A DNA stretch of 64,000 nt from an uncultured Candidatus Melainabacteria bacterium (GTDB lineage: Bacteria > Cyanobacteriota > Vampirovibrionia > Gastranaerophilales > Gastranaerophilaceae), in contig CANOTP010000001.1 of NCBI GenBank assembly GCA_947570135.1, positions 1 to 64,000 of the forward strand. The letters run 5' to 3'. The translations under genes and the position numbers were made by a program. Positions 45,077 to 59,763 of this stretch are shown one piece after another (positions within the stretch are counted from its first letter, which is position 1; the number at the start of each line of letters is the position of its first letter). Below the pieces are notes generated by a model that made no database searches, had not been told where the DNA came from, and worked only from the letters and a program-made list of their open reading frames with translations.

Positions 45077-46078
45077 ATGACAAAAAAGATTAAAGCAATG
45101 GTAATGGCAGCAGGTATGGGTTCAAGACTTGAACCTATAACGTTAAGGTTTCCAAAACCTCTGATTCCTGTGATGAACAGACCTTTAATGGATATAATTT
45201 TATCTCAACTTCACGCTATCGGTGTTAATGAAGTTATTTCAAATACTTATTATCTTGCCGACCAAATTATTGACCGCTATAAAAATAATAAGCTTGGTAT
45301 TAAATTCTCATCAATTAAAGAAACCGAACTTTCAGGGACTGCAGGCGGCGTGAAAAAATGTCAATTCTTCTTTGATAAAGGTGAAGATTTTGTCGTAATG
45401 TCAGGTGATATATTAACAACCGCTGATATTAAAAAAGGTATTGAAATTCATAAAAAATCAGGTGCTATAGCAACTATCGGAGTTAAACAGGTTCCGCACG
45501 AACAAGTTAGCCACTTTGGTGTTGTTGTCACGGGTAAAAATGGTTTTATCACAGAGTTTCAGGAAAAACCTGCTCTTCAAGAAGCTAAAAGTAACCTAAT
45601 CAATACAGGAATTTATATTTTTAACTACAAAATCTTTGATTATATTCCTGAAAATACATTCTATGATTTTGCAAAAAATGTTTTCCCTAAACTGTTAGCA
45701 GAAGGTCAAATAAATACTTTCGAAGTGAAAGAATACTGGAATGATATCGGAACAATCGGACAGTATAAACAATCAATTCAGGATGTATTTAACGGAGTTT
45801 GTAAAATTAACCACGATAAAATTGTTGAAACAAATTTAGGCAACTATATCGCAGGAGATTCAAAAATTCCTTCAACCATCAGGTTTGTAGGTAATTCTGT
45901 TGTTGGTTCTAATGTGAAATTAGGCGAATACATTATGCTTGATAATTGCGTCGTAATGGACGGCGCTGAAGTTAAAACAGGTTCTGAGTTATCAAATTGT
46001 GTAATTCTCCCTGCATTATCTGTTGCTGCACAAAAAAGAGTTTCAAAATCATCATCTAAAGACGCTTTAATGGTTTAA
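45077..46078 (+). CDS. Sugar-phosphate nucleotidyltransferase (NDP-sugar pyrophosphorylase)
   Basis: This 333-residue cytoplasmic enzyme belongs to the mannose-1-phosphate guanylyltransferase / glucose-1-phosphate nucleotidyltransferase family. KAMVMAAGMGSRLEPITLRF and PKPLIPVMNRPLMDIIL form the nucleotide-binding signature. VMSGDIL holds the metal Asp, and EFQEKPALQEAKSNLINTGI plus YWNDIGTIGQYKQS are sugar-site blocks. The C-terminal 90 residues hold a few left-handed beta-helix turns. A weak GGGAT precedes the ATG. Its stop overlaps the convergent FliF-like/TPR gene by 23 bases. The substrate base and sugar are not determined. Confidence 0.9.
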   Translation: MTKKIKAMVMAAGMGSRLEPITLRFPKPLIPVMNRPLMDIILSQLHAIGVNEVISNTYYLADQIIDRYKNNKLGIKFSSIKETELSGTAGGVKKCQFFFDKGEDFVVMSGDILTTADIKKGIEIHKKSGAIATIGVKQVPHEQVSHFGVVVTGKNGFITEFQEKPALQEAKSNLINTGIYIFNYKIFDYIPENTFYDFAKNVFPKLLAEGQINTFEVKEYWNDIGTIGQYKQSIQDVFNGVCKINHDKIVETNLGNYIAGDSKIPSTIRFVGNSVVGSNVKLGEYIMLDNCVVMDGAEVKTGSELSNCVILPALSVAAQKRVSKSSSKDALMV

Positions 46079-47297
46079 ATCCTGATTTATCGGGTTTTGG
46101 AACCGTCGGGTCTTCTAATACTTTCGGGTTTTTAATTTTTGCGTAGTATTCGTTTGCTTTTTTCTTGTCTTTGGCTGCGGTGTATCTGTCAGCAAGTTTC
46201 TTGTATATCATGTCGTTTCCACCAAGATATTTGATTGATTTTTCGTAACTGTCTATAGCATGCTGTTCATCATAAATATTTCTTTCAAGCTTGCAAACGT
46301 CACATCTTCGCCAGCCTACATTTGAATAAGCATCTCCGAGTTTTTCATAAACTTCGTAAGCATTTGGGTTAAGTTCAAGCGCTTTATCATAATCTTCAAT
46401 TGCTCCCTGATAATCTGAGGTTATGCTTGAATTATGTGCGAACATGGAGTATTCTTCAATATTTTGCAAATCGCCTCGTTCAATGTATAACTTGTAATTG
46501 TTTGGATTATTTGCGAGTTTTTTGTTTAATTCAATTAATTTTTTTAAGTATTTGATTGAATTTGAGTATGTTTGCGGCTCTAATTCTTCTGCTTTTTCAA
46601 GATTTTTTATGGCTTTTTTGTAGTCTTTATCCGTAAGCAGTGCTCGTTTTGCCTGACCGTAATAAGTTTTTGCTAAGCATTTGTTATCACAGGCTTCAAA
46701 TTCAAAATTAACTTTGATATTTTCTTTAGTAAGACTCGGAACACTTGCTGTTAGTAAAGACTTTGTTGTGTTTGAGATTCTGTCTAAGTCAAAAGCTTTG
46801 TTTGTATTGATAGTAACAGTTGCAGTTATCGGTTCGGGATGTTCAATAAAAAACATAATCATCGGAATTTTTATATCGGTTTTTGCACTGTAAATTCCGT
46901 CAATATGGGATAAGCGTTTTGATAGTGCACGATTTAGTTTTTTTTCAAGTTTTTGTATCTTTTTAGGTTTTGTACTTGTAATATATAAGTAAACATCCAC
47001 ATTAGGATTAAGCGAAACATCATCTGTTATTATACCTTTTTCAACTAATTCAACCGCTGCATAATCAACCTGTTTTTTGTTTGTTCCAAAAATTGCAATC
47101 ATATATTTTGACCCATCAATGTAGCGGATTGTTGGTCGGGTAAACATTGTCAGCGCGTCTTGAATTTCGTTTGCTTTTTGCGGGTTATCTGTAGTTGCGA
47201 CTACTTGATAGTTTGTTGCAGCAATGTAGTTTCCTAAAAGAAACATAATTACGCCGAATGTAAGGATTGCTAAACTTATTAAAATATTCTTTTTCAT
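46056..47297 (-). CDS. FliF/YscJ-type ring-building domain fused to TPR repeats, membrane-anchored
   Basis: In this 413-residue protein, residues 5-25 are a membrane helix. About 30-210 follow the two-part FliF/YscJ pattern. YQVVATTDNPQKANEIQDAL with YIDGSKYMIAIF matches the first subdomain. KLEKKLNRALSKRLSHIDGI, YSAKTDIKIP, then TATVTINTNKAFDL and SLLTASVPSLTKENIKVNFE match the ring-building second subdomain of MS-ring and injectisome proteins. From about 225 there are four to five TPR units (AIEDYDKALELNPNAYEVYE). A double-Cys site lies in RRCDVCKLE. The start has no ribosome site but has a -10 box eight to ten bases before ATG. FliF proteins do not normally carry TPRs. Confidence 0.65.
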   Translation of the reverse strand: MKKNILISLAILTFGVIMFLLGNYIAATNYQVVATTDNPQKANEIQDALTMFTRPTIRYIDGSKYMIAIFGTNKKQVDYAAVELVEKGIITDDVSLNPNVDVYLYITSTKPKKIQKLEKKLNRALSKRLSHIDGIYSAKTDIKIPMIMFFIEHPEPITATVTINTNKAFDLDRISNTTKSLLTASVPSLTKENIKVNFEFEACDNKCLAKTYYGQAKRALLTDKDYKKAIKNLEKAEELEPQTYSNSIKYLKKLIELNKKLANNPNNYKLYIERGDLQNIEEYSMFAHNSSITSDYQGAIEDYDKALELNPNAYEVYEKLGDAYSNVGWRRCDVCKLERNIYDEQHAIDSYEKSIKYLGGNDMIYKKLADRYTAAKDKKKANEYYAKIKNPKVLEDPTVPKPDKSGFKPLKRL

Positions 47298-47303
47298 ATT
47301 ATG

Positions 47304-47332
47304 ATTATACGGATATTGTTAAAAATAACAAT
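47304..47332 (-). promoter_or_regulatory. Promoter for a probable leaderless transcript (minus strand)
   Basis: On the minus strand, TTGTTA and TATAAT are 16 bases apart. The -10 box ends six bases before ATG 47297, which lacks a ribosome site. Confidence 0.45.
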
Positions 47333-47891: not shown

Positions 47892-49007
47892 ATGAATATT
47901 GACAATGAAGCAATTGCAAAAAGTTCTGTAAATAAACGAAGTATATGTGCTACAATTTTGGCAACATTTATATTCTTATTTTGTGCAGTATATTGCTTAT
48001 TTGAAATTATAACTACTAACCATAATCCTGTTTCCATTTGGCTTTTAGGCTTAATGTTAATGAATTTATTTTTTCTTGCTGTAATATGTGCTGATTTCAA
48101 AAGAATGAAAGATGAAATCAATACAGAATTAAGACTTACAAAAAATAGTCTGCTAATTCTGAAAAACAATAATATTTACCGGATAATTCCAAAAGAAAGT
48201 CTAAAATTATCAGTATCAAATCATATCCCGGCCTTTACAATATGCACCTTGTTCGATAATAAAACCAAAGTTAAAACATTCAGCAACTTAAATTTAGAAC
48301 CAATATTAACTGAATTGAACTTGAACAATAAAGATGATAAAAATAAGTCTTTAATTTTTATAGGAGTTGTTTGTTTATTTTCAGGTATTTTTTCGGGTTT
48401 GAGCGTTAATCTGTTAAGTGATAATCTCGAATATAATAAAGCTATCAGATGTTTGAATGATAATAGAATTGATGAAGCAATTATACACTTGGACAAAACT
48501 GTTACATCTTGCCGAAAAGGTATAAGATGTGCCGAGTCTTATAGCATAAGAGGTCATATTAAAGAATATAATTTGAACAATAAACAAAGTGCTTTACTTG
48601 ACTATGAACAAGCATTAAGGCTGTTTGACGAAATTATCAAAGCAAAGAATAAACAGAATAACGACAGATTGTATATTGGTAGAGCTATTGTTAAATATGA
48701 TTTGGATGATAAACAAGGTGCCTTAAAAGATTATGATACCGCTTTAAAGATTAATCCTAAAAATATAAGAACATATAATTTACGAGCATTACTTAAAATA
48801 GAATTAAAAGATTACAATGGTGGATTAGAAGATTTAAACAAAATTGAAGAATTAAATCCACATGCTTTGAATATGTTTAAAGATACATATTATTATCGAG
48901 GGAAAGCAAAGTATGAATTGAAGGATATAGAAGGGGCAAAGGAAGATTACAATAAAGCGATTAAAAAGTTCCCCGATGAGAATTTTAAATGGTATGCTAA
49001 TAAATAA
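47892..49007 (+). CDS. Membrane-anchored TPR protein in the interrupting segment
   Basis: This 371-residue protein has two N-terminal transmembrane helices (about 20-45 and 50-70), a short soluble domain, a third hydrophobic helix (about 155-180), then four or five TPR units (DIEGAKEDYNKAIKKFPDEN and others). AGGTGG precedes the ATG. It lies inside the DNA that splits the signal-peptidase-like gene, beside the dispersed repeat, so it probably arrived with that insertion. It has no transposase or other mobility gene. The function is unknown, although PTR-rich membrane scaffolds are common here. Confidence 0.75.
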   Translation: MNIDNEAIAKSSVNKRSICATILATFIFLFCAVYCLFEIITTNHNPVSIWLLGLMLMNLFFLAVICADFKRMKDEINTELRLTKNSLLILKNNNIYRIIPKESLKLSVSNHIPAFTICTLFDNKTKVKTFSNLNLEPILTELNLNNKDDKNKSLIFIGVVCLFSGIFSGLSVNLLSDNLEYNKAIRCLNDNRIDEAIIHLDKTVTSCRKGIRCAESYSIRGHIKEYNLNNKQSALLDYEQALRLFDEIIKAKNKQNNDRLYIGRAIVKYDLDDKQGALKDYDTALKINPKNIRTYNLRALLKIELKDYNGGLEDLNKIEELNPHALNMFKDTYYYRGKAKYELKDIEGAKEDYNKAIKKFPDENFKWYANK

Positions 49008-52629: not shown

Positions 52630-55600
52630 TTATCTTAATCTTGTAATATCAACATGTGATACATATTTTGATAATATATCAATCGGAACTTCAGTTACTG
52701 CCGAATAGCTGTGCGGATTAGCTATTTTAACTTTTTTTGTTACAGGGTCGTATCCGATTATTGAATAAGCATGATTTGAAACAAGGTTATATTCTTTTAA
52801 AAGATTACTTTCTGCTCTTTGAGCAGGTATTGTACCGAAGTTTAGAAGATAATCTTTGTTATTTGAGTAATTATTTAACAAATTTTCAATTCTTGCTTGA
52901 TTTTTATTAACGCTTATGCCGATAGAACTATCTTTAGGAAGTCCGCCAACAGGTATTCTGCTTGAAAATCCAAGATTTTGGAATCCTAATAATTCAGATA
53001 AGGCTTGAGGTGCATATCCACCTTGAATTCTTTGCATAAGGGAATTTGTAGTTACTTCTAAACTTGGTAAGAAATCCACTGTTTGAGGGCGAAGTGCAGT
53101 CTTTGCGTATGTTCGTTCAATCATTTGTAACCCTTTACAACCTATCAGTTGTCTTTGAGTTTTAGGAACTTCTCCGTTAGGGAAAGTATGAGAACCGTTA
53201 AAATCTTCATATCCTTTGATTGTTACGGTTACATCGTTTCCGTTTAGGCTGAATGATTTATACAATTGTGCTCTTGCTGTCGGGTTATTCATACAGGATG
53301 ATAATGAACTAACCAAATAGCAATCCCCCAATGAGCCTTGTACTGTTGCAAAACGTTCAACAGGTGGGAATAATTCAAGGAATTTTTCTTTTGTCATGTT
53401 CCATTCAACAAGGGAATTTCCGTCGTTGATAAACATTTTATCCCCGATTTCAATCGCATCTCCGCATTGAGTTTTAGTGAAAACTTCTTCAATCGGGGTT
53501 CCAGCCTTAAATTCAGGAACAATTGATTTTCCTGATTTTATTAAGTTCAGGTCGTTATAAATATCTTCGCTTAAATCGGAATTACTGTTGAGCATTTTTA
53601 ATGCTAGAGGATCTAATTTCTTTGATTTAACCAAATCAATTATACCTGAACTTAATATTTTATTGTATTGAGCAGGGTTGTGAAGTTTCATTTCTATTAG
53701 GTTTGGATGAGTAAATATATCTCTGTTGAATCCTGTTTCTTCTCCCGCTTTACAAATTGTTTCCAGTATAAATTCACGATTTTTCGCGTCTTTAAATTCA
53801 GGTATATCTTTTACTGTTTTTAAAATTTGCGAAAGTTCTTGAGGGTTAATTTTACCTTTTCTTGTCATTTCCATTAGAAAATCTATGTTGTTTTCTGAGA
53901 CCCCGCTCAAAAGATACCCGAAATTAACTTTTTCATATTGTTTAAAATGCTCTATTACAGATAATAATTTATCAATATCAAACTTTTCTGCAAAATCTAT
54001 TGCCGCAGGAACTCCGTTTGCATCAAGAATATTTCGATTGTCTAATAATTTCAATCTTAATCTTGTTTTTTGTGGTTCCGGAAGTTTACATTTTTCAAAT
54101 TTTTCTGCTATGTGATTAATTTGCATGATTCCTAATCGTCCTTGTCCAAAACTTGCAGCAGTCTTAATTAAGTCAGGAGTTTGACTTGCTATTCTTAAAA
54201 TATTCAGCATAGCTTTGCTACAGTCTTGAATTTCTTTTGGAGAAAAGATATTACCTTTTGATTCATTGTTTATTATATTTTGATTTATATTTCTTGAATT
54301 AGCTGACAAATATGATAATATATTTTTCATATAAATTTTATCTTTAGCGTTTGCTAACAAATCAAGTATTTCACTTTGGCGGGAAGGGTCTATTTCGATG
54401 ATTTGCTTGATAATAGCTTGGTCATATCCTGCAAGTTCAGGTGTTTGTCTTAATTTTTGTTCAGTACTTGTTTCTATTCCTTCAAATAAATTATAAAAAT
54501 AGTTATCATCAATTTTGTCGTCAAATTTGAGGTTTTCTAACAGTTTAGCATTTAGTGAACCCTTCTTTATTTCTTTAAATCCTTTAGAGTGGATTAATTC
54601 ATTGTATCCTTCGGGATTTAATTCTTTCATTAATGCAAGGTTAAATTTTATTTTAGTTTTTACCATAGGATCAACATTGCTTTGGTGTGCAAATATTTGA
54701 TCCATTTCTGACATTGTTTTTAAGAATTTCGGACTCAGTTTATTATCACATATATTATTGATAATTTCAGGATTATCAACATATTCTGCAAGTAATCTGA
54801 AAAATGTGTTTTCCTGCATTGATATTGGAGAATTTGTTATTAATATTTGATGCAATAATTTGTCTTGAGTAGATTTATCTAAATTGTTAAACGCACAATC
54901 TTTTGTTGCAAAGCTGTTTGATAAAATTGCTTTGTAATTCATTTCTGCAAAGTTACATTTGTTTTGAAGAGTGTAACCTTCATTAAAGAATTGTTCAAAT
55001 ATTTTTAATGTGTTTTCGTTAAATGAATTCTTGCTGGTTAAATTTGATATAAAGTTAAGTATATTTTGATTATTAAACATTCCTGAATCAAAAGCTTCGA
55101 TTAAGTATTTTGAAAATTTCGGATAATCTTTTACCATAGCATCAATATCGCCAATGCTTCCAAACATTTTTTTTATTGGTTCAAGAATAGCATCAACAGT
55201 AGGAGAATCTTTTATTGTTTTAAAATATTCAGTTACTTTTGCCATATCAAAAGTTCCGTCAGTATTTTTTAACGGAGAAAAATCAAAGAATCGGATAGTT
55301 CCTTTTGCTCCGTTTGCACCCAATTGGAGTTGTAAAAACGGACTGCTTGCAGTTTGTGCTTGTCCTATCGGGTCATTGAAAAGACTGTTGATGTAGGCCA
55401 TCATTTTTTGGCTTGTATCTATTTTATCAAACGGAAGTTTTGCAAATTCGGGTTTCCAGTTTTGTATAATTCCATGCAGATATACTACAGGAAAGTCTAC
55501 TTTTTTCATTGCTTCCAATGGCAGACTGTTTAAGGATTCAGGATATTTCAATAATTGTTGTTTTAAATAATCGTTTATTCTGCCCTTGCACATTGAAGTA

Positions 55601-58600
55601 ATAATTTGCAAACTTTCTTCGGTTGTTCTTTGGTGTTTTACGGAGGTTTCAATTGGAGAAGTTTCACTTGTTTGCATTTCTACAGTTGCAGGGTTAAATG
55701 AAACCGTTTCATAGTAATCATTCAGTGCCAGTTCTTGGGTAATTTCACCTTTTTTAAGTTTTTCTGCTACTTCGTGAAGTTTTACCAGGTTTTCTGCTTT
55801 AAGTCTTGCATCAAATTTAAAACCTTTTCCGTAGTCTTCAAGTTTTGGCTCTGTGCTTTCAAATCCGAGTTCAAGTTTTCTGAGGTGGGTATAGTAATCA
55901 GTAAGATAACGATTGTATTCCTTATAAGTTTCTTCGCTCATTGTTTCTTTAGATAAAAGTTCTTTAATCGGATTGTAAAGTGGTTCAAGTTCTTTATGTT
56001 CCCCTATAATGTTTTTATTTGTCCTCAAATCGTACGGAATATGTTCACCTTCCGCAAATTCGTTAACTTTGTCTCCGCGGAATTGCCATTCCATAATTTC
56101 GCCTGTTTTGGTTTTGAAGTTTATTTGCAGTGCTGTGTAGCCTGAAGGTTGAGCTTTTGTTGTCGGTTTTTTGCCTTCGGCTTTCATTTGGGAGTAAAGC
56201 GGGTCGGATTTGTCAACTTTGACTACGTAATCAATATTTACACCGTGTTGGGCTCCGAATTGTTTTAATTCTGCAAGCTGAGCTTCTGAAAAATACGGAA
56301 TACCGTTTTCTGATACGTAGTTGCTGATTCTTGCTGTTTCAAGTCCTTCTTTGCCTTGGGCTTGGGACAGAATCATTCCTTTCAGTTTTTCCAGTGCGGG
56401 TGCTGATTGAAGTTCTGCTGCGCGGAGTTGTGCTCCTTTGATATCTCCTGCTTCTATTAAGGCTTTTACCTCAGGATGAGTTGTAAAGTCTTGAGATTGG
56501 ACAACCGTTCTTGCTCCGAAGGCATCACGAACACTTTTTACCGCATCTTCAAGGGGTGCATTCGGATTGTCTTCAAGATAGTTTGTAATTTTATCGTATA
56601 AACTTTGTTCACCTTTTACACGGGATGTCATTTTCCCGATTTGATCAAGTCCCGCGTCTTTTAACATCTGATTAAGACGGTCTGTTTGATTGGTGTATCT
56701 TTCTCTCAGTGAACTTACTTCTTCACGGACAGCTGTTTCTTTCGGTTGTTTGTCTGTAGTAATGGTTGCTCCGTTTTGTTCTTGAAGTCTTGAATCCATA
56801 AGTATTGCGGATTCTGCACTCATAAGAGTTTGACAAAGTGTAACAGCCTCAGCGGGAGAATTTATTTTGAAATTACCATTCGGTGTTTTTGCAACTAGAA
56901 CTTTTTGACCGTTAACTTCAGTATGTTGAAATTCTATATTCTTTAAGCTATTAAATGATTTTAACTGTTCTTGCATTATGCCTGCTTGAGTATTTTTCTT
57001 ACTGCAAAATGCCATAAGAATTTTAGTTAAACCTTTACAGCTTGTAAGTCCTTCCAGTTGATGTCCGAGTTCTTGTTTAATTAAGCCCAAAAAAGATTCT
57101 TCATTGGAATATTGAGCTTTTAGTGTTCCGTCTTTGTCAAAAGCCAATGCCGTGAATTTTGCAATCATTCCTGCCGGTACCGAGTAACCTGTAAATGCCA
57201 GAATTTCAGTGACAAATTCCGCGGCTTTTCCTGCAATATTTGAACCCGGTGCTGTCAGATAATTTGCCATAAGTTCTGCCCCACTTACGGTTTTTCCTGC
57301 TTCAATCGGTTTTGTTATTACGGCAAGTTTTTTAGCATCAGGTGCTTTAAATAATTTAGGTAAGGTAGTTGCAGCTCTGTTTGAAACTGTAGCACAAACT
57401 TTTTGAAATTTTGGTGCCATATAACCCGCAAAGGCTCCAAAACCTGTTGAAACAGCAACGCTTTGAATATAATTTGACACATCAAGTTTGCTTATGGGGG
57501 TATCTTTTACGGCTAAATCCAAGCCTTCTATAGCTGCTGTGGAACTTCCCATAAGCACTGCATTGGCAATAATATTACCTCTTAATCCTCCGCCGATTGC
57601 TCCTGCAAAACGGCTTGTTAATCCTCTTGAAAGCGGGTTCATCATAGCGTAAATACTTAGTGTTAAGTTTCCGCATCCTGCCCAGAAGGCTTTGCTTTCA
57701 ACAAATTTGCTTGTATTATCAACAAGCCTTGAACCAAAAGCTTTTTTAAATGCATTTTGATATTGAGGTGTATTCGGATCAACTTTGTTATTTACAAGTT
57801 CGATAAAGTCTTGGATATTCTTTTCGTTAAATTCAATACCTGTTGTTTGGTAAAAAGCGTTTCTGTAACCATGATTATTGCCTGATGATAGTTTAGTATT
57901 GTCAAGCATTTTCAAGATTTGTTCTTTTTCCTTTTTTAAGTGTTCAATATATTCTGTTGCACTGTGAGCTTGTTTACAGTCAAAAGTTTTATCTATGCCT
58001 GTTGCAAATCCTTCATAAATTTTTGCTAACATTCCGCTGTTATCTTTATATTGTTGAAGAATTGTGATACCTTGATCATATTGAGTTTCAATTATTTTAG
58101 CTGCATAGTTTTGTGTTCGTAATCTCGGAATCTCAGGCATGACCAATTCGCATCCCATGTAATTTACGGCATTGTTTTGGATTTCGTCTTTTGTCATTAT
58201 AGATATGCCTGTCGCTTCAAATGCCATTATTACCTGATCTAAAGATTCGGGAGATTTGTTGCCCAGTGCTGCTGCAACTTTTTTTAAGTCTGTTTGGCTT
58301 AAGTTCTCTTGTGGAATCGCACTAAGGCGTTGATAAATTATGTGACCTAAAACTCCTTCGATATTTAAGCCCAGGTGTTCTTTTATTGCATATTCAAGCG
58401 GTTTTATCGTGTTTCCTGCTTTTATTGTTTTGCCTGAATCAAAAAGGGATATTCCCGTTTTTGTAAAGACTCTTTTCTTTATTTCTGTTAAATCGGTAAT
58501 TTTAGCATTTTTACATTCCTGAATAGCTGCGATAGCTTTTTGACGGTCTTTTTTTGATAAGCTGTTCAAAACCTGATAAAAGGCATTATTTCCCTGATTT

Positions 58601-59763
58601 GGAGCAAATCCTGCGGCTTTTGCCACTGCAATTGAGGTCTTATCTCCTTCAAGTGCTACGGTGATTTTTTCGCCCGGATTAAGTCGTTTAACAAGGTCTT
58701 TATTTACCATTTGGAGCCGAAGGGCAAGTGTTCTGATTTGTTCTTTTGTTCCGTTTGGTAAAATTTCACGTGCAAGGCTTTCAACAGAGGTATGCTTTTT
58801 CTTTATTGTATGTTCGGAAAGTGTGCAGGTTAACAAATCTGCCTGCTCATGTTTAACATTCCAATTGAAAAACTCTGCCTGAGCTTCTTTAGATGTTTTT
58901 CTGTTTTTTACGGATTTATCATCTGCGGCAACTTCGTTTGGAACACGAATTATTCCGCCTACTTGCATATTATCGTAATTAAAGTTGCCTTTGTTTAGTT
59001 TATCAAGTTGTTGTTTTGTAGTTTTAAAATCTTTTGTTAAATCGGCAATACAATCTCCGTTTTGTAAAACAACGTAGGTGTTTCCTTCTCCGTCGTAACG
59101 TATATTGTATGAGTGTCCGTTTACTTCAATGTTTTGAGCCAATCGGTTAAGGTTTTCATTGTTTTTATTGCCATATTTATCAATGTCGGTACTGTTGTAA
59201 ATATTGGTTGTAATTTTATCCTGCGTGATAATAACTTCGCGCAGCAGACCGTTTAAGGCAAAATCATTTGTAACAACGGTAACTGTACCGTCAGGTTTTG
59301 TCGTTGTTCTGTTTATGAAATCGGTTTTATTTATTTCTCCTGTTTCAGGGTTAACGTTAAGCGCGGTTGTCGTAATTTCCGTTCCGTCAGCTAAAGTTGT
59401 ATGGATAACAGCAAATTCTATACCGTCATCATTTCTGAGATATGTGTATGTGGTTTCTGAGCTGCAGTCAGTAGCTTTTTTTGATTTAATTTTACCGTTT
59501 TCGTATTCGATTGTTTCTTTATCGGTTTTTTCTACGTCTTGAGTTTCTGAACAAGATTCACTGCGTTCTATACTTAAGCCCATTGTTCTGCTGTTGGAAA
59601 ACCCCGTTCCGAATGCGGAGTTTTGACAGGCTTGTTCGTATTCTGCACGGGAGATTATGCCGTTTGTCATCATTGCAGATAATATAACCTGTTCGGGTTT
59701 TCCTTTTAATTCCGAATTCGAAGCAATAAAACTGTTAAGCTTTTCTTGGACATTAATATTCAT
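52630..59763 (-). CDS. Giant 2377-residue protein with RelA/SpoT-like and calpain-like domains
   Basis: Domains by rough residue: 60-220 degenerate T/DG repeats like those of the 2712-5154 protein; 225-276 LysM-like (VVLQNGDCIADL to MQVGGIIRVPNE); 690-870 hydrophobic Gly/Ala helices; 1030-1250 a RelA/SpoT-like nucleotidyltransferase; 1350-2090 helical repeats; 2141-2377 a calpain-like protease. The RelA part keeps SRVKGEQSLYDK (1047-1058), RDAFGARTVV (Asp1080, Arg1085), SGYTALQINF (1207-1216) and MEWQFRGDKVNEFAEGE (Glu1225). The protease has Cys2148 (VQGSLGDCYL), His2331 (SNHAYSIIG) and Asn2349 (KIANPH). No signal peptide. It starts the minus-strand operon and diverges from the 994-residue gene. 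The role, effector or intracellular regulator, is unknown. Confidence 0.8.
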   Translation of the reverse strand: MNINVQEKLNSFIASNSELKGKPEQVILSAMMTNGIISRAEYEQACQNSAFGTGFSNSRTMGLSIERSESCSETQDVEKTDKETIEYENGKIKSKKATDCSSETTYTYLRNDDGIEFAVIHTTLADGTEITTTALNVNPETGEINKTDFINRTTTKPDGTVTVVTNDFALNGLLREVIITQDKITTNIYNSTDIDKYGNKNNENLNRLAQNIEVNGHSYNIRYDGEGNTYVVLQNGDCIADLTKDFKTTKQQLDKLNKGNFNYDNMQVGGIIRVPNEVAADDKSVKNRKTSKEAQAEFFNWNVKHEQADLLTCTLSEHTIKKKHTSVESLAREILPNGTKEQIRTLALRLQMVNKDLVKRLNPGEKITVALEGDKTSIAVAKAAGFAPNQGNNAFYQVLNSLSKKDRQKAIAAIQECKNAKITDLTEIKKRVFTKTGISLFDSGKTIKAGNTIKPLEYAIKEHLGLNIEGVLGHIIYQRLSAIPQENLSQTDLKKVAAALGNKSPESLDQVIMAFEATGISIMTKDEIQNNAVNYMGCELVMPEIPRLRTQNYAAKIIETQYDQGITILQQYKDNSGMLAKIYEGFATGIDKTFDCKQAHSATEYIEHLKKEKEQILKMLDNTKLSSGNNHGYRNAFYQTTGIEFNEKNIQDFIELVNNKVDPNTPQYQNAFKKAFGSRLVDNTSKFVESKAFWAGCGNLTLSIYAMMNPLSRGLTSRFAGAIGGGLRGNIIANAVLMGSSTAAIEGLDLAVKDTPISKLDVSNYIQSVAVSTGFGAFAGYMAPKFQKVCATVSNRAATTLPKLFKAPDAKKLAVITKPIEAGKTVSGAELMANYLTAPGSNIAGKAAEFVTEILAFTGYSVPAGMIAKFTALAFDKDGTLKAQYSNEESFLGLIKQELGHQLEGLTSCKGLTKILMAFCSKKNTQAGIMQEQLKSFNSLKNIEFQHTEVNGQKVLVAKTPNGNFKINSPAEAVTLCQTLMSAESAILMDSRLQEQNGATITTDKQPKETAVREEVSSLRERYTNQTDRLNQMLKDAGLDQIGKMTSRVKGEQSLYDKITNYLEDNPNAPLEDAVKSVRDAFGARTVVQSQDFTTHPEVKALIEAGDIKGAQLRAAELQSAPALEKLKGMILSQAQGKEGLETARISNYVSENGIPYFSEAQLAELKQFGAQHGVNIDYVVKVDKSDPLYSQMKAEGKKPTTKAQPSGYTALQINFKTKTGEIMEWQFRGDKVNEFAEGEHIPYDLRTNKNIIGEHKELEPLYNPIKELLSKETMSEETYKEYNRYLTDYYTHLRKLELGFESTEPKLEDYGKGFKFDARLKAENLVKLHEVAEKLKKGEITQELALNDYYETVSFNPATVEMQTSETSPIETSVKHQRTTEESLQIITSMCKGRINDYLKQQLLKYPESLNSLPLEAMKKVDFPVVYLHGIIQNWKPEFAKLPFDKIDTSQKMMAYINSLFNDPIGQAQTASSPFLQLQLGANGAKGTIRFFDFSPLKNTDGTFDMAKVTEYFKTIKDSPTVDAILEPIKKMFGSIGDIDAMVKDYPKFSKYLIEAFDSGMFNNQNILNFISNLTSKNSFNENTLKIFEQFFNEGYTLQNKCNFAEMNYKAILSNSFATKDCAFNNLDKSTQDKLLHQILITNSPISMQENTFFRLLAEYVDNPEIINNICDNKLSPKFLKTMSEMDQIFAHQSNVDPMVKTKIKFNLALMKELNPEGYNELIHSKGFKEIKKGSLNAKLLENLKFDDKIDDNYFYNLFEGIETSTEQKLRQTPELAGYDQAIIKQIIEIDPSRQSEILDLLANAKDKIYMKNILSYLSANSRNINQNIINNESKGNIFSPKEIQDCSKAMLNILRIASQTPDLIKTAASFGQGRLGIMQINHIAEKFEKCKLPEPQKTRLRLKLLDNRNILDANGVPAAIDFAEKFDIDKLLSVIEHFKQYEKVNFGYLLSGVSENNIDFLMEMTRKGKINPQELSQILKTVKDIPEFKDAKNREFILETICKAGEETGFNRDIFTHPNLIEMKLHNPAQYNKILSSGIIDLVKSKKLDPLALKMLNSNSDLSEDIYNDLNLIKSGKSIVPEFKAGTPIEEVFTKTQCGDAIEIGDKMFINDGNSLVEWNMTKEKFLELFPPVERFATVQGSLGDCYLVSSLSSCMNNPTARAQLYKSFSLNGNDVTVTIKGYEDFNGSHTFPNGEVPKTQRQLIGCKGLQMIERTYAKTALRPQTVDFLPSLEVTTNSLMQRIQGGYAPQALSELLGFQNLGFSSRIPVGGLPKDSSIGISVNKNQARIENLLNNYSNNKDYLLNFGTIPAQRAESNLLKEYNLVSNHAYSIIGYDPVTKKVKIANPHSYSAVTEVPIDILSKYVSHVDITRLR

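Follow-up and report, generated by a model that had tools for sequence, protein, structure and literature searches.

Genes and features at the locus

The window (the whole stretch of 64,000 nucleotides that was analysed, from an uncultured Candidatus Melainabacteria bacterium of the Gastranaerophilales) carries on its reverse strand a gene encoding ring-building motifs (RBMs) of the YscJ/FliF type followed by TPR repeats, hereafter the RBM-TPR gene. The features of the gene and its product are as follows.

46056-47297 (-): RBM-TPR gene, 413 aa plus stop; open reading frame confirmed, with orthologues and dN/dS values
47304-47331 (-): promoter-like site TTGTTA-N16-TATAAT, with 6 nt between its -10-like hexamer and the ATG
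47232-47288 (-): single N-terminal transmembrane segment, residues 4-22, hydropathy scan
46710-47219 (-): YscJ_FliF (PF01514) domain, residues 27-196, Pfam
47010-47210 (-): RBM1; in the model, strand 30-36, helix 39-51, strands 56-61 and 64-70, helix 74-86, strand 94-96
46695-46976 (-): end of the linker and RBM2, residues 108-201; helix 111-129, strands 135-143 and 158-165, helix 171-185, strand 194-200
46128-46685 (-): TPR region, residues 205-390; Pfam matches and helical pairs in the model; presumably periplasmic
46059-46127 (-): residues 391-413, C-terminal tail rich in Pro and Lys, with a pLDDT below 50

A convergent nucleotidyltransferase gene (45077-46078, +) overlaps the 3' end of the RBM-TPR gene by 23 bp, and the neighbours of the gene in the window are unrelated to export. 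Divergently from it, 47892-49007 (+) encodes an adjoining membrane-anchored protein with three predicted transmembrane segments and then TPRs; the group has several such TPR membrane proteins. Farther along, 52630-59763 (-) encodes a protein of 2377 aa whose C-terminal part includes a calpain-like stretch (PF00648, 25.5 bits, E = 8.6e-6).

In the RBM-TPR genes of five relatives, the -10-like hexamer (TATAAT; TACAAT in one) stands at precisely this distance of 6 nt from the ATG, and one of these genes is a copy sited elsewhere in its genome. No Shine-Dalgarno sequence was seen upstream of the start codon. A hexamer at this distance from the ATG, together with the lack of a Shine-Dalgarno sequence, suggests that the mRNA is probably leaderless.

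Domain architecture and fold of the RBM-TPR protein

A sequence-only reading of the window had proposed a two-subdomain segment of the FliF/YscJ type fused to TPR repeats in this frame, and both parts of that proposal were borne out. The profile of ring-building motif proteins, PF01514, matched at 48.6 bits (cut-off 24.4, E = 1.1e-12) over positions 3-169 of its 179, and the models matched FliF, EscJ and PrgK. In the same frame, TPR family matches started from residue 210 and exceeded the Pfam cut-offs for TPR_2 (37 vs 27 bits, E = 2.4e-9) and TPR_11 (36.4 vs 26.8 bits, E = 4.1e-9). RBM3 (PF08345) was not among the Pfam matches up to E = 1.

The full-length AlphaFold model was mediocre (pLDDT 61); its TPR part was poor, with low confidence at residues 265-345, and its RBM part showed the order strand-helix-strand-strand-helix, then helix-strand-strand-helix-strand. 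The RBM region modelled alone reached a pLDDT of 78.7. Using VIA-align, this RBM-only model was superposed on the Salmonella FliF ring (8wkq_UI) with a Z of 13.0 over 144 residues (rmsd 3.4), against a background in which unrelated folds scored Z 9.4 and below; the full model was superposed on PrgK RBM2 with a Z of 13.0 over 94 residues (rmsd 2.6). The top Foldseek matches of the modelled protein were FliF, EscJ, PrgK and MxiJ. Searching the PDB by sequence alone returned TPR matches only, and a profile of the RBM part built from four close sequences had no match; Pfam, hhalign and structure were required to recognize this remote kinship. These results confirm that the protein folds as RBM1 and RBM2 followed by TPRs, a domain architecture that is new for this known family. 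No YscJ/FliF protein with a TPR fusion was found described in the openly readable literature.

The hydropathy scan detected no second transmembrane segment, and a cytoplasmic tail as in FliF is absent. The protein also has no lipobox cysteine, its first cysteine being residue 203. Hydropathy predicted one membrane helix in the close orthologues, three in some distant homologues and two in FliF2, the FliF-like protein described below. Because the number of helices is odd (one or three) and the N-terminus is presumably cytoplasmic (positive-inside, MKK), the RBMs and TPRs are predicted to lie in the periplasm. The TPRs had been placed where FliF has its cytoplasmic tail, which did not hold: with a single transmembrane segment in the protein, they should remain periplasmic, occupying after RBM2 the position that RBM3 has in FliF.

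Relatives and selection

Orthologues were found with identities of 80% (G001), 75% (G026), 73% (G007) and 63-64% (G014), and the whole architecture was kept at 80, 75 and 63% identity. The gene neighbourhood was the same as that of the window in G001, G026 and G014, and the gene lay elsewhere in G007. More distant homologues comprised one of 37% identity in G019 and a second, divergent copy in G007. The G007 orthologue (L005, G007:C61:91024-92250) carries one in-frame TGA, reflecting either a pseudogene or an assembly error. In the order-wide sample, homologues with different N-termini were present in G311, G342 and G336; two homologues (L096, L098) have three helices, and in the G297 homologue (L122) the TPRs precede the RBMs, with none behind. 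Another relative (L008) is a TPR form, similar to the 47892-49007 (+) product, without a recognizable RBM.

By Pfam, the RBM-TPR gene was present in 6 of the 36 genus genomes. A peptide-pattern scan of the genome collection retrieved only four close relatives, a count from patterns so narrow that it does not imply absence outside the family. The relatives identified by whole-genome searches belong to a gut lineage named Candidatus Melainabacteria or Gastranaerophilales, with MAG Zag_111 among them. The dN/dS among orthologues was about 0.13 (range 0.11-0.22), with both the RBM and the TPR halves constrained; for the RBM region it was about 0.15-0.22 where dS was measurable. Reading frames were intact in four species. 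The orthologues are thus under purifying selection, and the conserved architecture together with the low dN/dS indicates that the gene is neither a chance nor a misread frame.

A second basal body without flagellin

The same genome encodes an export apparatus (FlhA, FlhB, FliP, FliQ, FliR and the ATPase). Exactly two proteins in the window genome (G000) matched PF01514, namely the RBM-TPR protein and a FliF-like protein of 559 aa (FliF2; PF01514 and PF08345). The latter is encoded in a flagellum-type row of FliE, FliF2, a tentative FliG-like open reading frame, FliH and FlhA; in the FliG slot (L037:8-769), there was only a weak MgtE_N match (E = 0.0055), such that the FliG-like label is tentative. 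The genome also has a SpoA-type switch protein, FliO, FliP, FliQ, FliR, FlhB with its NPTH motif, FliI, and the rod proteins FlgB, FlgC and two FlgF/G-like proteins. Flagellin is absent. The loci are as follows.

C1, 203-210 kb (L036, L037): second basal body and export genes
C5, 93-98 kb (L082): second basal body and export genes
C5, 55.6 kb (L130): second basal body and export genes
C2, 204 kb (L131): second basal body and export genes
C7, 78-80 kb (L129): second basal body and export genes

The impression that nothing else of a flagellum is visible was thus correct for the window and incorrect for the genome; the suggested search for export genes elsewhere retrieved a near-complete flagellum-type set outside the window.

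This set was present in nearly all genus genomes, and it stands beside true flagella in related families. Flagellin was absent from 35 of the 36 genus genomes. The single match (L089, G014:C63) lies on a contig of 3.1 kb in a bin that is 88% complete and 6% contaminated; therefore, we consider it probably misbinned or a contaminant. Across 59 relatives, most genomes of the other families of the order carried flagellin together with two classes each of FliF and FliR; the FliF classes were separated by E values of about 1e-50 and about 1e-31, and the window genus kept the second class only.

In the flagellated relative G041, the second set forms one cluster (FlgG-FlgG-FlgB-FlgC-FliE-FliF2-two open reading frames-FliH-FlhA-FliI). 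The FlhA of the window genome was 76% identical to the second-set FlhA of G041 and 36% to its flagellar FlhA. The corresponding values were 75% and 45% for FliP and 55% and 29% for FliR; FliI was 76% identical to the second-set FliI. An incomplete flagellar gene set in non-flagellated members has been put down to genome reduction or regarded as a remnant without function (PMC3787301, PMC4040986). We rejected a decaying flagellum as the source of the export genes because in flagellated relatives this set occurs in addition to a separate, true flagellum. The retained genes belong to a second, non-flagellar basal body that is paralogous to that of the flagellum. The openly readable literature yielded no account of this order having a second type III system.

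Separately, L038:9796-11274 (G000:C7) encodes a protein of 492 aa in which an unrelated N-terminus precedes the C-terminal cytoplasmic domain of FlhA (PF00771 316-653), the sole part of FlhA present. It is possibly a soluble decoy or a docking platform.

Origin of the RBM part

The RBM region of the window protein showed a mean identity of 30.5% to FliF2 and 17.2% to flagellar FliF. Using hhalign, the RBM part matched FliF2 with a probability of 98.6% (E = 5.9e-16) and flagellar FliF with 22.7% (E = 9e-4). The linker-like motif ITSTKP is common to FliF2 (TSTKEDK). In a maximum-likelihood tree rooted on flagellar FliF, the RBM-TPR proteins grouped with FliF2 (support 97) and formed their own clade (93); the exact branching point is uncertain, given the long branches and the use of only 168 columns. 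It is well supported by these comparisons that the RBM-TPR protein derives from the FliF2 side, and its RBM part is a paralogue of FliF2.

Proposed role and alternative explanations

As the export system has a full FliF2 of its own, there is no need to assume that the RBM-TPR protein forms the ring of a new machine. Its presence in 6 of the 36 genomes, as against the near-universal FliF2, indicates an accessory rather than a core part or the base of a new machine. We infer, at somewhat short of an even chance, that it is a membrane-anchored periplasmic TPR adaptor that docks on, or tunes, the FliF2 ring. RBM1-RBM2 would bind or co-assemble with the periplasmic face of this ring, and the TPRs would form a variable docking collar that recruits an envelope partner, a substrate or a regulator; alternatively, the protein might hold back or time the assembly of the ring. 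Export would be performed by FliF2, FlhA, FlhB, FliI and FliO-P-Q-R, with the RBM-TPR protein as an optional accessory. Work on Salmonella FliF showed ring formation by RBM2 and RBM3, a strictly monomeric RBM1-RBM2, and relief of this block by RBM3 (PMC8786727). Since the RBM-TPR protein kept RBM1-RBM2 and lost RBM3, it is unlikely to form a ring unaided, and it may enter or hinder the FliF2 ring. A TPR collar around an MS-ring also has a precedent in Campylobacter, where the ring is surrounded by a periplasmic disk made of the TPR proteins PflA and PflB (PMC12222027).

Against docking, TPRs can bind anything, presence is patchy, and the gene (G000:C1, 46 kb) is unlinked to the export operons on C1 (203-210 kb), C5, C2 and C7. 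A serious rival, albeit one that we regard as rather unlikely, is a stand-alone envelope adaptor in which the RBM pair has no role in a ring and anchors or spaces a TPR platform for partners unrelated to type III export. The same patchiness and lack of an operon link are in keeping with it, as are the free variation of the rest of the protein among the relatives sampled (three helices, TPRs first, or no recognizable RBM) and the monomeric state of RBM1-RBM2 of Salmonella FliF alone; however, the RBM region is constrained, including the motif shared with FliF2. We consider it improbable that many copies assemble into an RBM2 ring of their own with a TPR crown, outside the FliF2 machine, which would come near to the proposal of the sequence-only reading. 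The RBM fold is confirmed, isolated FliF RBM2 forms rings, and SctJ makes rings with RBM1-RBM2 only, together with SctD (PMC4768692), but FliF constructs with RBM1-RBM2 did not leave the monomeric state without RBM3 (PMC8786727), and no export apparatus was found besides the FliF2 system, except the FlhA C-terminal-domain protein.

As an example of a novel ring, the sequence-only reading had suggested one in an export machine for the giant proteins, and a further alternative is that the RBM-TPR protein is the base of such a dedicated machine, the giant proteins being those of 2377 and 994 aa in the window. Its remark that these lack signal peptides was sound, in that both open reading frames begin with soluble sequence and none is evident, and the 2377 aa protein could be an export substrate. 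Nevertheless, nothing links the RBM-TPR protein to their export: no export genes adjoin its gene, the type III apparatus that is present comes with a ring already, and no evidence connects the giant proteins with either, which makes such a machine very improbable. In G001 and G014, the contig stops short of the giant genes. We give scarcely any more credence to a decaying duplicate without function, for which the in-frame TGA of the G007 copy and the patchy distribution could be cited; the dN/dS of about 0.13 largely refutes a pseudogene, and the frames intact in four species and the conserved promoter-like site also argue against decay.

It is conceivable, if doubtful, that the gut order Gastranaerophilales runs an unrecognized second, non-flagellar basal-body export system with RBM-TPR proteins as its variable periplasmic collar. 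This system would comprise rod proteins, FliF2, a full gate and an ATPase without flagellin, and it would operate in parallel to or instead of flagella; the collar would have arisen by duplication of the ring protein, with TPRs replacing the ring-locking RBM3. If the second system secretes proteins, it would represent a so far unstudied route of export in a lineage that is common in the gut. The order-wide system is worth studying independently of the RBM-TPR protein. In the latter, a ring-building module would have been separated from the domain that closes the ring and coupled to docking repeats instead, offering a direct way to test which portions of FliF ring assembly requires.

Comparison with known systems

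The RBM-TPR protein resembles FliF (PF01514 and PF08345, TIGR00206) in its N-terminal transmembrane segment, RBM1, linker and RBM2, with clear homology through FliF2. However, it has TPRs instead of RBM3, the second transmembrane segment and the cytoplasmic FliG-binding tail, and it scored 33.8 bits against the NCBIfam equivalog TIGR00206, whose cut-off is 129.75. With SctJ, the inner-ring lipoprotein of injectisomes (PrgK, EscJ, MxiJ), it shares a periplasmic RBM1-linker-RBM2 without RBM3, as reflected in the Foldseek matches; it differs in having a transmembrane anchor and a TPR C-terminus and no lipobox, and it scored 35.8 bits against TIGR02544 (SctJ, NCBIfam), whose cut-off is 161.95. We therefore rejected membership in either family, since RBM3, the second helix, the cytoplasmic tail and the lipobox are all absent and both scores fell below the cut-offs. 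PflA and PflB of the Campylobacter motor are likewise periplasmic TPR proteins around an MS-ring, but they have no RBM domain, and PflA has a beta-sandwich and 16 TPRs (PMC12222027); they serve as an analogy for mechanism only, and we claim no homology. The closest relative of the RBM part is FliF2 of the order-wide second basal body (G000:C1, 204 kb), which differs from the RBM-TPR protein in its length of 559 aa, its two transmembrane segments, its PF08345 domain, its place in an export operon and its nearly universal presence in the group.
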